From: Legionella rubrilucens
Lineage (GTDB): Bacteria > Pseudomonadota > Gammaproteobacteria > Legionellales > Legionellaceae
Reading direction: 5' to 3'
NCBI RefSeq assembly: GCF_001468125.1
Contig: NZ_LNYT01000022.1
Span: 456,160-520,159, forward strand
Length of the DNA: 64,000 nt
The translations under genes were made by a program, and so were the position numbers. Shown here one piece after another: positions 19,019 through 47,956 of the stretch (its first letter is position 1; every line of letters begins with the position of its first letter). A model generated the notes under the pieces. The model searched no databases and had not been told where the DNA came from. It saw only the letters and a list, made by a program, of their open reading frames with translations.

Positions 19019-20209
19019 ATGACACCTTTGATAAAGTGTGCTTTTGCACCTTTGTTCAGTCTGTTTATTTTTCTTCTCGGCGCTGGATTTTTTTCAACCC
19101 TGCTGATTTTAAAAATGACGCTGGAGCAGGCTTCAACCTGGTTGATGGGGGCGATAACCAGTGTGTTTTATATCGGTGTGGTGGCGGGTTCGCTTCGCAC
19201 GGAACAGATTATTCTCCGGTTGGGGTATCGCAGCGCCTATGGGCTTTTTTCGCTCATTCTGGCCATGTGCTGCCTATTGCACGGGTTCTTCTATGAGCCT
19301 GGCTTGTGGCTGGTTTTGCGTTTTATTGCCGGCTTTGTGATGGCTGGCGTTTATGTCGTAATTGAAAGCTGGTTGTTATCGGTGAGTTCGATCCGCAATC
19401 GTGGTCAGGTCATGGCCTGGTACATGATTGCATTTTACAGTGCCCAGAGTGTTAGCCAGTTTATCCTCTGCCTTAAGGACACAGCGCCCTTTCTTCTTTA
19501 TGGATTAGCGGCTCTGCTCAGTGTGATTTCGGTCATTCCAATCGCTTTTTTAGCCAGCCGGATTCCCAGGTTAACCGCGTCTTCCTCATTGCCCAGGATT
19601 GCTTTGTTGAAAGCCTCCATACCGGGATTGACCGGGGCGCTGGTTTCAGGACTGATTATGGGTGTTATCTACGGTTTATTACCGGTTTACCTCAGCGCAT
19701 TATCAGGCGGTGTGTCCTTGGTAGCCACCTACATGTTTGCGGTGATATTTGGCGGTATGTTGCTGCAATATCCATTAGGCAAATGGTCTGATCAGCGTGA
19801 CCGGCGTCAGGTCCTTATGCGAATTACCGTTCTGACCATGCTGACGCTGCTGTGTTTGATTGGTTTTAAAGGCCCATCGGTCTGGCTTTTTGGTTTGATG
19901 ATGCTTTTTGGCGGGCTTACTTTCGCACTTTATCCCATCAGTGTCAGTGATGCCTGTGATGCATTAGGTCCGGAGGACATTGTGGCGGTAACGCAAACCC
20001 TGCTGCTGGCCTACAGCGTAGGAGCCATGGTGGGGCCGGTTATTGCTTCATTGTTTATGCAGGAGTTGGGGAACCGCGGGTTATTCATTTACTGCATCAT
20101 GGCTTGTGCGGCAACACTGCCGATGTATGCACAAAAAAGAGAACGGCTTCCACCGGGCGAGTTTGTCAGGACAGGGCGTCTTCCACTTGATTTAAAGAAG
20201 CCGGATTGA
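19019..20209 (+). CDS. YcaD-like MFS transporter
   Basis: This major facilitator of about 396 residues has twelve hydrophobic helices. It resembles the YcaD family: the N-terminal FAPLFSLFIFLLGAGFF helix, the loop IESWLLSVSSIRNRGQVMAWYM near residue 120, and the second-half loop GKWSDQRDRRQVL, a version of the MFS motif A. The substrate of this family is not established. ATG 19019 is preferred over TTG 19004. The 3' end overlaps the convergent downstream gene by 44 bases, so antisense interference between the two transcripts is possible. Confidence 0.8.
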   Translation: MTPLIKCAFAPLFSLFIFLLGAGFFSTLLILKMTLEQASTWLMGAITSVFYIGVVAGSLRTEQIILRLGYRSAYGLFSLILAMCCLLHGFFYEPGLWLVLRFIAGFVMAGVYVVIESWLLSVSSIRNRGQVMAWYMIAFYSAQSVSQFILCLKDTAPFLLYGLAALLSVISVIPIAFLASRIPRLTASSSLPRIALLKASIPGLTGALVSGLIMGVIYGLLPVYLSALSGGVSLVATYMFAVIFGGMLLQYPLGKWSDQRDRRQVLMRITVLTMLTLLCLIGFKGPSVWLFGLMMLFGGLTFALYPISVSDACDALGPEDIVAVTQTLLLAYSVGAMVGPVIASLFMQELGNRGLFIYCIMACAATLPMYAQKRERLPPGEFVRTGRLPLDLKKPD

Positions 20210-20906
20210 GCAGCCATTGAATCTGTGTATTAAGATCAATATCTATCTGCGAAGGCTCTTCAATGTCTCGCGATTCGTATGCATTTTCTTCAGGGAACGC
20301 GGTTTTAAAGTCCCGCATTCGCTGTTGACGCTGTTCATGCAGCCAGACAATTTGCGGTGAGAAAAGCCTCAGCATACCCTGCACCCAGCGATCCAATACC
20401 TGCCAGTATTCGCTGTCGTTAAGCGTCATTTTAAACCGTCTGATAAAACCGGCGACGTGGCGGGCGTCGTAAATGATATCGGAAGAAACCCAGCGGTTGA
20501 CGGTAAACAGGCGGATGGGTTGTCCGTAACAATTCATGGCAATGGCGACCAAATGGGTCATGGGATTGTCCATGTACTTATCCCAGTCAGGCAAGGCGGT
20601 GGGCTTAATCTTTGCCGGAATGCCTTTATACCTCAGAAAACAATGGAAATGTCCATGCTCCATGCTTTCAAAATTTTCACGATGGCAGTGGTAGAAATAC
20701 TGAGCTCCCGTTTGATGATCAATGCGATCGCCTTTGGGGTAATGATTCATGGATACATGTTTGCGTTTTTTCTCAAGGGTGTAGTGAATGATATTCCTGC
20801 CCCTGGCTGTCGTCATTTGTTGCTGGCTTTCAAGCACCTGCCTTGCGGCACGCAGCAATTGCGATTGCTGAAAAGCACTTAAGTCTGGAAGAGAAAAATT
20901 CGGCAT
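20166..20906 (-). CDS. Conserved cytosolic protein, DUF6969-like
   Basis: A protein of 246 residues with no membrane segment. It contains HYPKGDRIDHQTGAQYFYHCHR, then EHGHFHCFLR, clusters of His and Asp that look like a metal site. This resembles my memory of the DUF6969 family, which has unknown function. The C-terminal part is helical and Arg/Gln-rich, ending in an acidic stretch. The gene lies just downstream of the cysteine-rich peptide gene on the same strand, with the intervening hairpin at 20935-20963. Whether the two are functionally linked is unknown. ATG 20906 is the natural start. Confidence 0.6.
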   Translation of the reverse strand: MPNFSLPDLSAFQQSQLLRAARQVLESQQQMTTARGRNIIHYTLEKKRKHVSMNHYPKGDRIDHQTGAQYFYHCHRENFESMEHGHFHCFLRYKGIPAKIKPTALPDWDKYMDNPMTHLVAIAMNCYGQPIRLFTVNRWVSSDIIYDARHVAGFIRRFKMTLNDSEYWQVLDRWVQGMLRLFSPQIVWLHEQRQQRMRDFKTAFPEENAYESRDIEEPSQIDIDLNTQIQWLLNPASLNQVEDALS

Positions 20907-20934
20907 GGGTCATTTCGTTAAAGAGAAGAAGCAC

Positions 20935-20963
20935 AGGGAAACAGCCGCCATGACTGTTCCCCT
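20935..20963 (-). terminator. Hairpin after the cysteine-repeat gene
   Basis: AGGGAAACAG (20935-20944) and CTGTTCCCCT (20954-20963) form a ten-base stem with one A-C mismatch around a nine-base loop. It begins nine bases after the gene's stop and resembles the hairpin at 21361-21386. No T-run follows in the minus direction. Confidence 0.45.
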
Positions 20964-20971
20964 GACATGAA

Positions 20972-21193
20972 TCAGCTGCCGCTGCAACCGCCACAGCCTT
21001 TGCAACCGCCGCAACCTTTGCAGCCGTTACAACCTTTACAGCCTTTGCAACCGTTACAACCTTTGCAACCGTTACAGCCTTTACAACCAGTTACTTGAGT
21101 GCCTGCCGTATCATTTGCATAGGCAGCAGGAGCAACCGTAGCAGCAGATAAAGCAGTTAATAAAGCGGCAACAGCAACAGTTGATTTTTTCAT
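20972..21193 (-). CDS. Secreted glycine-cysteine triplet-repeat peptide
   Basis: A peptide of 73 residues with a clear signal peptide (MKKSTVAVAALL, cleavage near AYA-ND at residue 26). The mature 47 residues consist of a nine-residue lead, then twelve uninterrupted Gly-Cys-X triplets (X is Lys, Asn, Gly or Ser) and a Gly-Ser end. Twelve cysteines at exact three-residue spacing suggest metal binding, dense disulfides or post-translational modification as in peptide metallophores. The known HvfA peptides have cysteine repeats of a different sequence and sit beside DUF692 enzymes; none is encoded here. ATG 21193 is preferred over an upstream start because it begins the signal peptide. Function unknown. 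Confidence 0.75.
   Translation of the reverse strand: MKKSTVAVAALLTALSAATVAPAAYANDTAGTQVTGCKGCNGCKGCNGCKGCKGCNGCKGCGGCKGCGGCSGS
20981..21088 (-). repeat. Twelve-unit 9-base tandem repeat coding for (Gly-Cys-X)12
   Basis: Bases 20981-21088 hold twelve 9-base units read on the minus strand as GGY-TGY-NNN. Third positions vary (AAA/AAG/AAC/GGY) and synonymous changes are common, so the array has been kept by selection on the protein rather than by recent slippage alone. Confidence 0.85.
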
Positions 21194-21360
21194 GATAAGT
21201 CTTCCTTGAAAGTAAGTTAAGAACATGAAGCCACTTAAAGAGTAGCAGAAAAAAAATAATTTTTCTTACCTCCTCAATAAAAAAATGAGTCTGTTTTAAA
21301 GAGGTTATGGACAGTGTGTTAAAAGTTAGCGAATAGCGTTTTAAAAGGAGACAGGGGGAA

Positions 21361-21386
21361 GGGAAACAGCGGGATGGCTGTTTCCC
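21361..21386 (-). terminator. Perfect 10-base-pair hairpin after the Asn/Gln-rich gene
   Basis: GGGAAACAGC (21361-21370) and GCTGTTTCCC (21377-21386) pair perfectly around GGGATG. It lies 12 bases past the stop of the Asn/Gln-rich gene and shares the GGGAAACAG arm with the hairpin after the cysteine-repeat gene. Confidence 0.55.
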
Positions 21387-21398
21387 GATACCGGTGAA

Positions 21399-21674
21399 TT
21401 AAGACTGAGGGGCCTGATTGGCATTGCCAGGATTGCTGGGGTTATTTGAACCGGTGTTACTGGCTGGCGTATTTTGCTGACCGGGGTTGGCTTGATTTTG
21501 AGTCGTATCCGTCGTTTGTTGTTGACTGGGTTGGCTGGGATTCGCCGCATTGGCATCCGCGTAAGTTTGAGTTTGTGTCGCATGGGATTGAGTGCTGGTC
21601 TCTGCATTGGCATTGGGTTGGGCAGAAACGGCGGTTGCAGCGAAAATGGCCAATAAAGCAATTACTTTTTTCAT
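21399..21674 (-). CDS. Secreted Asn/Gln/Thr/Pro-rich low-complexity protein
   Basis: A protein of 91 residues with a signal peptide (MKKVIALLAIFAATAVSA, cleavage before QPNAN). The mature part is almost entirely Asn, Gln, Thr, Ser, Pro and Ala, with no cysteine and very few charges, so it should be disordered outside the membrane. It is probably periplasmic or surface exposed. The gene lies upstream of the Gly-Cys repeat gene on the same strand, 205 bases away, and both end in similar hairpins. ATG 21674 starts the signal peptide; the longer reading adds seven residues. I do not recognise the family. Confidence 0.6.
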   Translation of the reverse strand: MKKVIALLAIFAATAVSAQPNANAETSTQSHATQTQTYADANAANPSQPSQQQTTDTTQNQANPGQQNTPASNTGSNNPSNPGNANQAPQS

Positions 21675-46087: not shown

Positions 46088-47956
46088 ATGGGATGGAATG
46101 ATGTTTGGAAAACAGCCAGTGATTGGGCGCAGTCAGCCTGGACCCAGGCGGTAAAATTTAAATACACCTTGAATTCGATGTCTTTGCCCGTGGTCGCGGG
46201 TGAGACGGCGAAGTTCTCGTACAACACGCTGATCGGGCTGACAGAAGAAGTGGCGGCCTTGCCTCATGTATTGAAGGCTGCCCTTCTGCATCCCAAAACT
46301 CGCCGCACGTTTGGGCATCTTGCCCGCATTGGGGTTGAGGATTACGGCGCTCTGGTTCTCGCCTACCAAATCGAAAAAAGCCTTGAATCCGTGCTGCTGG
46401 CCGCACTGGAAGGCAGCGAAGGGCAGCCCTGGCTAAGCACCAGCACGGCATTATCTCTGGCGCTGATGCTTTTAAGGACGACTCACACGGCCTACGCATT
46501 CCGTAAACGCATCCAGATAGGTATCCGCTTAGCCACTGTCTCGATTGAGGCGAGCGGCACCATTACCTCGGCGAATCCGCAATTGGACAAAATGGGGGAG
46601 ATCAGCAAGAACGAATCAAAATTAAGTGGCATCATTGGCGCATTGAGTGATCTGGTCAAGTACAGCCTGACCGATTTCACGATCAACCAGGGGGTCAAAA
46701 AAATTCCGGTGGTGGGGCCTGTAGTCGGCAATGGCCTGGCCGCCAAGCACACAGGCGACTTCATTCTGACCTCGGTTTTAAAAGGCATGGCCCCAAAGCA
46801 TGTGCAAGCCTATTTGCAAGAATACCCTGAGTATGCCTGGGTACTGGGCATGACTCATACGATCCTGTCGTATTACGTCAATGATTTCATTGAAAACACG
46901 ACGGGTGTTCCTCGGGAATTGTATGAAACCATCATCAACCAGACAGGGTTAGTGACGCTTATCGCAGTGGCCGCGCACATTCGTCTTCCACCGCCCGTTG
47001 CCGAATCAAAACGGCAAGTGCCTGATCCCATTCGGCTTTATAAGGCCGGCCTGCAGGTAGGACTGGATATCATCGGTTATGGACTGAAGGCCAAAATCCC
47101 CGAAATGCTTAAGAATGAATCCGTTATTCCCTGGGGGAAAGTATTCACTGTGGGGAAAACCGTGTGGTACCACCCGTCGACACAGACGGCAAAAATCATC
47201 TTTTTGCCCCGCATGCTGCATGGGAAAAAAGCGTTTTATCGCGATCCGGTGGTCGAACCCAATTGGGAAAGTCTGCGCACCCGGATAATTGCGGCGATTC
47301 AGTTGATTGAAAAATACAGTCAAAAGCTGCTTGTTGCCGCCGCCACAAAAATACCTAAAATTTCGGCGAAGGTTGCGGGGTTCTTGGGAGCCCCGCCGGG
47401 TGTTGTAGCCTTTGTTTTAAAACTGATGGCCAATGAGCCATTCATGCAGCGTTTGTCGGCTTTCCGCCGGCGTCTGGAGGCCATGCACATTGTCGATCTG
47501 CCGGAGCAGGAAAATTTAAGGCAGATGGAATACCTGCATCTGTCTTCACCTCAAAAAGAAAAAAAGGGGGAAAAGTCCGAACCTGTTATCAAGAAAACTC
47601 TGCTCTCACCAGACGAGGTACTCCATGGCTCCAGAGAGGTTTCAACGCCGCAACCTCTACCAGAAGTGGGCTATGCAACGCGCGACAACGAGGACTATTC
47701 TCCGAGTCTTTTGATGACCGGTGGTTTTTTTGCGAAGCAGGCGAGTAGCAAAAATGCAGCCGATTTAGATCCGGCCAGCCTGATGGGGATAAGTTCCAAT
47801 TCCGACAGCAAGAATCTGAGGAAAGATCCCTTAACCAGTGATTTTTTTGCGAGGAAGGTGAATAGCAGAAATGAAGACGATTTAGATCCGGCCAGCCTGA
47901 TGGGTATAAGTTCCCATTCCAGCAGCAAAAGTCTGGGGAAGGATCCCCTGGGTTAA
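46088..47956 (+). CDS. Large unknown protein with C-terminal tandem repeats, effector candidate
   Basis: A protein of 622 residues with CAGGAG upstream of its ATG. The N-terminal 430 residues contain several moderately hydrophobic helices (for example around 110-135, 285-300 and 420-440), interspersed with Lys/Arg-rich segments. A polar hinge (QKEKKGEKSEP) follows. The last 80 residues are two head-to-tail 39-residue repeats (bases 47717-47833 and 47834-47950), each with FFA, a DLDPASLMGISS core and a KDPL end. Such repeats can bind host proteins or be duplicated secretion signals. I do not recognise the family. Confidence 0.65.
   Translation: MGWNDVWKTASDWAQSAWTQAVKFKYTLNSMSLPVVAGETAKFSYNTLIGLTEEVAALPHVLKAALLHPKTRRTFGHLARIGVEDYGALVLAYQIEKSLESVLLAALEGSEGQPWLSTSTALSLALMLLRTTHTAYAFRKRIQIGIRLATVSIEASGTITSANPQLDKMGEISKNESKLSGIIGALSDLVKYSLTDFTINQGVKKIPVVGPVVGNGLAAKHTGDFILTSVLKGMAPKHVQAYLQEYPEYAWVLGMTHTILSYYVNDFIENTTGVPRELYETIINQTGLVTLIAVAAHIRLPPPVAESKRQVPDPIRLYKAGLQVGLDIIGYGLKAKIPEMLKNESVIPWGKVFTVGKTVWYHPSTQTAKIIFLPRMLHGKKAFYRDPVVEPNWESLRTRIIAAIQLIEKYSQKLLVAAATKIPKISAKVAGFLGAPPGVVAFVLKLMANEPFMQRLSAFRRRLEAMHIVDLPEQENLRQMEYLHLSSPQKEKKGEKSEPVIKKTLLSPDEVLHGSREVSTPQPLPEVGYATRDNEDYSPSLLMTGGFFAKQASSKNAADLDPASLMGISSNSDSKNLRKDPLTSDFFARKVNSRNEDDLDPASLMGISSHSSSKSLGKDPLG
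47717..47950 (+). repeat. Tandem 117-base repeat coding for two 39-residue units
   Basis: Two adjacent 117-base units (47717-47833 and 47834-47950) encode units identical at 26 of 39 residues, with the 12-residue core DLDPASLMGISS identical in both. Only one codon separates the second unit from the stop. Confidence 0.9.

Follow-up and report, generated by a model that had tools for sequence, protein, structure and literature searches.

In a window of 64,000 nucleotides from Legionella rubrilucens (contig NZ_LNYT01000022.1; "the window" below means this whole stretch), we analyzed a short gene, here called GCX, and the gene that follows it. GCX encodes a small peptide with a signal-like start and a run of Gly-Cys-X triplets, and its neighbor encodes a protein of the Pfam family DUF6969 (PF22308). 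We found that the two genes remain together across the Legionellaceae, and that other Cys-repeat proteins adjoin DUF6969 genes in more distant bacteria. GCX and DUF6969 very probably form one functional module. This pairing of exported Cys repeats with DUF6969 suggests an undescribed route to Cys-rich peptides for metal or sulfur handling.

The GCX peptide begins with MKKSTVAVAALLTALSAATVAPAAYA (MKKS...AYA-N; signal peptide read by eye), followed by the spacer NDTAGTQVT, 12 unbroken Gly-Cys-X triplets and a final Gly-Ser. All 12 cysteines lie inside the triplets, where X is Lys (6), Asn (3), Gly (2) or Ser (1). The wobble positions vary (Gly: 8 GGT and 4 GGC; Cys: 6 TGT and 6 TGC), and a degenerate DNA pattern for GCK-type repeats, with up to one mismatch, matched nowhere in the 3.13-Mb genome but at the GCX locus. 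Compared with three close relatives, the first 36 codons carry 6, 5 and 8 synonymous changes and no non-synonymous change. The varied wobble, single locus, synonymous-only divergence and conserved orthologues together confirm, at the level of sequence, that GCX is translated and under selection and is not slippage noise. An earlier note on this DNA had claimed selection on the triplet and an undescribed secreted peptide; both claims hold, the latter since the peptide reaches no Pfam or NCBIfam cut-off. GCX was also considered as a collagen-like protein and rejected, its Collagen Pfam score being 16 bits against a cut-off of 27.2.

To place GCX among its relatives, loci of up to 16 kb were fetched around matches to GCX or to a second, bufferin-like peptide (41 loci plus the window). 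With automatic gene choice, DUF6969 was the next gene in 26/28 loci with a GCX run of at least 3; locus L046, missed by that choice, raises the count to 27/28 and leaves L079 as the exception. Since the loci were fetched around these peptides, the count shows only what follows GCX. The outer neighbor genes vary among locus groups while the pair persists, indicating that one conserved neighborhood alone does not account for the pairing.

The same linkage was seen in a sample of 143 Legionellaceae genomes, 100 of which match the GCX query at E 0.001. Here GCX and bufferin-like matches were separated by reading, among the matches listed. On this basis 82/143 genomes have a peptide at the GCX position (one of them, G042, proved spurious), and 68 rows are bufferin-like, mostly at 39-50% identity. 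DUF6969 is present in 72/143 genomes, and 67 of the 72 have GCX on the same strand, 94-382 nt upstream of it. The two genes are on separate contigs in three genomes (G019, G023, G037), and two (G013, G021) have DUF6969 but no GCX row among the matches listed; in G013, however, a small peptide with Cys precedes DUF6969. The presence table, again among the matches listed, is 70 with both, 12 with GCX only, 2 with DUF6969 only and 59 with neither. Under a strict scripted rule, a Cys-repeat ORF (open reading frame) was found at 27/32 Legionellaceae DUF6969 loci, most of them chosen through GCX, versus 0 in 318 kb. Of two candidate partners named in the earlier note, the DUF6969 protein is supported by this adjacency. 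The other, an Asn/Gln-rich exported protein encoded just upstream of GCX (window 21399-21674), drops out: it is present in only 3/41 relatives' loci, all close.

The repeat and the signal peptide are both maintained in relatives, as the earlier note's reading of the gene had implied. In each of the 29 GCX orthologues fetched, the signal peptide is retained and the longest uninterrupted stretch counts 7 to 14 triplets; between species, the repeat count differs in whole triplets. The peptide of Fluoribacter gormanii is identical to that of another genome of the same family (L001 and L036). The signal peptide persists even in relatives whose Cys repeat is lost. We compared Cys content in peptides read from 50/70 genomes with both genes and 11/12 with GCX only (G042 left out), taking the genomes as they are, uncorrected for shared ancestry. 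With DUF6969 (n=50), the median Cys content after residue 26 is 24.4% and the median GCX run is 9.5; without DUF6969 (n=11), the median content is 7.0% and the run is at most 3. Four of the 11 genomes without DUF6969 (G028, G031, G051, G059) have Cys-free peptides, in which a GCX-type signal peptide stands before a Thr/Asp/Ser-rich tail. Within single genera, g13 and g18 show the contrast clearly and g15 mildly; g14 does not show it. At loci L214, L215, L071 and L077, in genomes without a DUF6969 match, a signal peptide closely resembling that of GCX precedes a Cys-free Thr/Asp/Ser-rich tail.

Outside the family, PF22308 was found in 30/369 sampled Gammaproteobacteria and 20/398 sampled Pseudomonadota (L. 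rubrilucens being in both samples), and in 0/14 control genomes; DUF6969-like genes matched in 168/72,556 plasmid records. Among 49 DUF6969 genes beyond the family, 40 have, by reading, a same-strand Cys-repeat protein within 1 kb, including some generous readings (L140 and L142 with two Cys units only, L166 irregular, and L127 running off the contig with its start unseen). Three further loci (L154, L155, L157) have a divergent Cys-repeat protein within 2 kb, and at L159 DUF6969 and a Cys-repeat protein lie at the edges of two different contigs. For 40 of the outside loci a larger stretch was fetched, and in 25 of these the strict rule found a same-strand ORF within 1 kb; the sequence more than 2 kb from DUF6969, 390 kb in all, yielded 2. 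The repeats are of many types (NPCAAK, GGNPCAPSAR, anchored SPCGL/NPCSLDED, GCC, CAAC, GCGAKC and SPCGLN). Since types such as NPCAAK and SPCGLN have other periods, the three-residue collagen-like or polyproline-II helix that the earlier note put forward, which GCX itself may form, is not a principle that all the repeats share. Peptide type tracks the DUF6969 tree, with 8 changes versus a shuffled mean of 28.2 (as low in 0/200 shuffles), on labels assigned by the author and a quick tree with long branches, uncorrected for shared ancestry. None of 10 exported Cys-repeat proteins scanned had an NCBIfam match, and none of 6 scanned without a cytochrome-like domain had a Pfam match at E 0.001. As a separate observation, genus g453 of the same phylum (L194, L195, L197, L234, L235, L237) has long anchored NPCAAN-type repeats in open frames of 193-242 aa, as well as a short divergent Cys repeat near DUF6969; an FGE-sulfatase-cluster gene occurs in all three g453 loci and directly adjoins DUF6969 in L194 and L195.

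The DUF6969 protein itself meets the Pfam gathering score with 242.7 bits against 27. Seven residues (H73, H75, E83, H86, H88, H118, N137) are invariant in 56/56 DUF6969 proteins, and the His/Glu set suggests a metal centre. The predicted fold is confident (model pLDDT 91.8). MNIO (DUF692) enzymes have a TIM-barrel fold; kinship of DUF6969 to DUF692 was not detected with a 10-sequence DUF692 profile (hhalign probability 0.1%).

We propose that the GCX precursor is synthesized in the cytosol, which would also house the DUF6969 protein in soluble form. Through a putative metal site formed by the invariant His/Glu residues, DUF6969 would act on the repeated cysteines, either by installing a modification or by loading metal or sulfur. 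The Sec signal would then take the peptide to the periplasm, where a multi-thiol peptide could act in buffering or transport, most likely of copper-like soft metals or sulfane sulfur. Because DUF6969 appears to be cytosolic and the peptide exported, action before export is the simplest model, as was inferred for bufferins. That cytosolic DUF6969 modifies or loads the GCX cysteines before export we regard as evenly balanced. We infer the metal binding of DUF6969, the peptide as its substrate, the type of modification and the periplasmic role; metal binding by the GCX peptide is plausible, and copper buffering, sulfane sulfur carriage or oxidant protection may be the role of the product.

Several observations weigh against this model. 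Peptides have only 3 Cys despite DUF6969 in G034, G037, G087 and G098, and 4 in G054; conversely, G072, G079 and G082 retain 9 Cys in an interrupted repeat without DUF6969. The shared ancestry left in the Cys comparison and the tree test counts on the same side. Outside the family, 5/49 loci have no nearby Cys repeat (L129, L130, L150, L152, L162), the L152 genome having a Cys-repeat protein elsewhere, and a motif scan of two plasmid records, one from Azospirillum and one from Sinorhizobium, found no Cys repeat near DUF6969. The repeats have no strict motif around Cys in common, which is unusual for a sequence-specific modifier, and E83 is replaced by Asp in Skermanella. Finally, GCX is missing at four second DUF6969 copies in Legionellaceae, and three of these copies adjoin a HemF-cluster gene, so DUF6969 may serve another job. 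These three copies (L220, L221 and L222, from G062, G077 and G068) stand directly after the HemF-cluster gene. The cluster, identified as coproporphyrinogen III oxidase by a Pfam check confined to L220, also occurs near DUF6969 in L179 and L210; a heme link is possible.

Bufferins offer the closest comparison. Like GCX, the Buf1/Buf2 systems (DUF692-MNIO with DUF2063) set a short Cys-rich peptide gene with a Sec signal, a feature also read by eye in GCX, beside a probably cytosolic, probably metal-dependent protein. Unlike them, GCX has a partner with no detectable kinship to DUF692, a simple tandem repeat, and a pairing that persists without any DUF692 match. GCX could be a bufferin-type RiPP (ribosomally synthesized and post-translationally modified peptide) modified in trans by a DUF692 enzyme encoded elsewhere, with DUF6969 as an accessory, which we consider very unlikely. 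The L. rubrilucens genome has one DUF692, GCX and DUF692 are jointly present or jointly absent in 11/11 genomes of its genus, and GCX matches the BufA2 profile (NF050166) weakly (E 0.0077, 16.4 bits vs a cut-off of 60). DUF6969 and DUF692 also co-occur somewhat over the 143 genomes (50/22/33/38, p 0.007), which counts against our model as well. However, the association of GCX with DUF692 is weak (53/29/30/31, p 0.09), and DUF692 is missing from 21/70 genomes that have both GCX and DUF6969; some of these assemblies are incomplete, but the listed completeness of G061, G095 and G104 is 100%. Bufferin-like peptides lie directly before DUF692 in 63/68 rows among the matches listed, while GCX does so on none of the relatives' 22 contigs bearing both genes, where the distance is at least 65 kb; the bufferin-like peptides thus serve as a control for the linkage method. 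The earlier note's statement that DUF692 is absent stands for the neighborhood of GCX; elsewhere in the genome DUF692 is present, on another contig. The search of relatives for conserved neighbors that it proposed yielded DUF6969 and no DUF692, which in relatives adjoins a bufferin-like peptide. In the locus of the L. rubrilucens DUF692 (L115; G000:C6:40740-41522), one gene resembles DUF2063 by eye and another seems to encode a small exported protein that contains Cys. Buf_EGKCG/oxazolin precursors are of the HvfA type. They resemble GCX in being exported with a repeated Cys motif; GCX differs in having no EGKCG motif and no DUF692 nearby, and DUF2063 was not among the 8 window proteins scanned and was not searched elsewhere for GCX.

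The SoxY swinging arm carries sulfur on a cysteine near glycine, and GCX might similarly be a carrier of sulfane sulfur, with DUF6969 as a cytosolic partner in persulfide transfer or sensing instead of a modifying enzyme. We surveyed 44 DUF6969 loci (40 plus the four second copies; Pfam run on one representative per cluster). A YeeE cluster (PF04143) occurs in 8/44 and a rhodanese cluster (PF00581), following DUF6969, in 10/44. Both flank DUF6969 in seven non-Legionella loci (L185-L187, L189, L190, L209, L211), in the order YeeE/YedE, anchored Cys-repeat protein (recognized by reading), DUF6969, rhodanese. A SoxA/TsdA cytochrome c domain scores above the cut-off in two Cys-repeat proteins, one Cys-repeat protein has a cytochrome P460 match below threshold, and DUF6969 of Ciceribacter thiooxidans adjoins a Cys-repeat peptide. 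GCX shares with SoxYZ and SoxA/TsdA a Cys near Gly in an exported carrier and, in two fused relatives, cytochrome domain kinship, but differs in its many tandem cysteines and DUF6969 partner. We found no sulfur gene among the 8 window proteins scanned, nor as a common GCX neighbor in Legionellaceae; the YeeE-rhodanese arrangement is confined to one DUF6969 clade, and a cytosolic DUF6969 would not meet a periplasmic carrier after export. We consider the sulfur carrier improbable. An unmodified, metallothionein-like peptide kept reduced by DsbD, with DUF6969 as a dedicated chaperone, metal sensor or regulator, is unlikely to a similar degree. Thiols alone bind soft metals, Cys repeats of many different sequences are tolerated, and DsbD is directly upstream of GCX in two loci (L052 and L067). 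Against this, the invariant His/Glu set would fit a catalytic or metal centre better, and no second Pfam family beyond chance was found in the 56 DUF6969 proteins. Least probable is a heterocycloanthracin-like peptide (TOMM) made by a YcaO enzyme. Gly-Cys repeats are reported in that family (PMC4603692), GCX matches TIGR03601 weakly (E 0.0007, 20.2 bits vs a cut-off of 35), and YcaO has one match in the L. rubrilucens genome and at least one in 9/11 genomes of the genus. Unlike heterocycloanthracins, GCX has a signal peptide and no YcaO among the window proteins scanned; G009 has a GCX run of 14 and no YcaO match, and the conserved neighbor is DUF6969.

Other company of DUF6969, each from a single representative, includes FGE-sulfatase, thioredoxin, DUF302 and a sigma factor. 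On plasmid pSM-3 of Skermanella mucosa (locus L247), a species isolated from oil-contaminated desert, DUF6969, an NPCAAK peptide, DUF302, a sigma factor and NrsF stand in a row. PMC12452194 describes sigma/NrsF genes with Buf1 and a few cytochrome and FGE fusions among bufferins; in sigma factor/NrsF and in rare cytochrome c and FGE-sulfatase company, the two systems are alike. Bufferins are reported to chelate copper.

Features of the GCX locus (window positions)
Feature	Position	Strand	Basis
Cys-repeat peptide gene GCX	20972..21193 incl. stop	-	ORF, 73 aa; ATG at 21193; orthologues; synonymous-only divergence
Sec-type signal peptide region	21116..21193	-	about residues 1-26; probable cleavage after AYA; by eye; conserved in 30 aligned sequences
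(Gly-Cys-X)12 repeat	20981..21088	-	sequence reading
Ribosome-binding-site-like AAGGAAG	21201..21207	-	by eye
Terminator-like hairpin between the GCX and DUF6969 genes	20934..20964	-	13-pair stem, T-rich tail
DUF6969 protein gene (PF22308)	20166..20906	-	246 aa; without visible signal peptide; putative partner metalloenzyme in the cytosol

With the hairpin after GCX, the peptide mRNA may be in excess over the DUF6969 mRNA; 5 such sites occur in the region versus 3.1 +/- 1.9 in shuffles, which is weak alone. A hairpin also follows the Asn/Gln-rich gene (window 21350-21674), and its arms nearly match, by eye, those of the post-GCX hairpin. Elsewhere, window 47717-47947 holds two tandem repeats of 117 bp (85% matches), a multiple of three.

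These results place a functionally uncharacterized Pfam family, along with exported Cys-repeat proteins, in context. We tentatively suggest, at somewhat less than even probability, that DUF6969 represents a peptide-modifying metalloenzyme of a new class, its fold unseen in solved structures. It would act on a RiPP-like family of fast-changing Cys tandem repeats (GCX, NPCAAK, SPCGL, GCC), some cytochrome-fused, to give exported metal or sulfur carriers across Pseudomonadota. If our model is right, the system would be a counterpart to that of the bufferins, reached in parallel, and would bring a new family of enzymes to peptide Cys chemistry.
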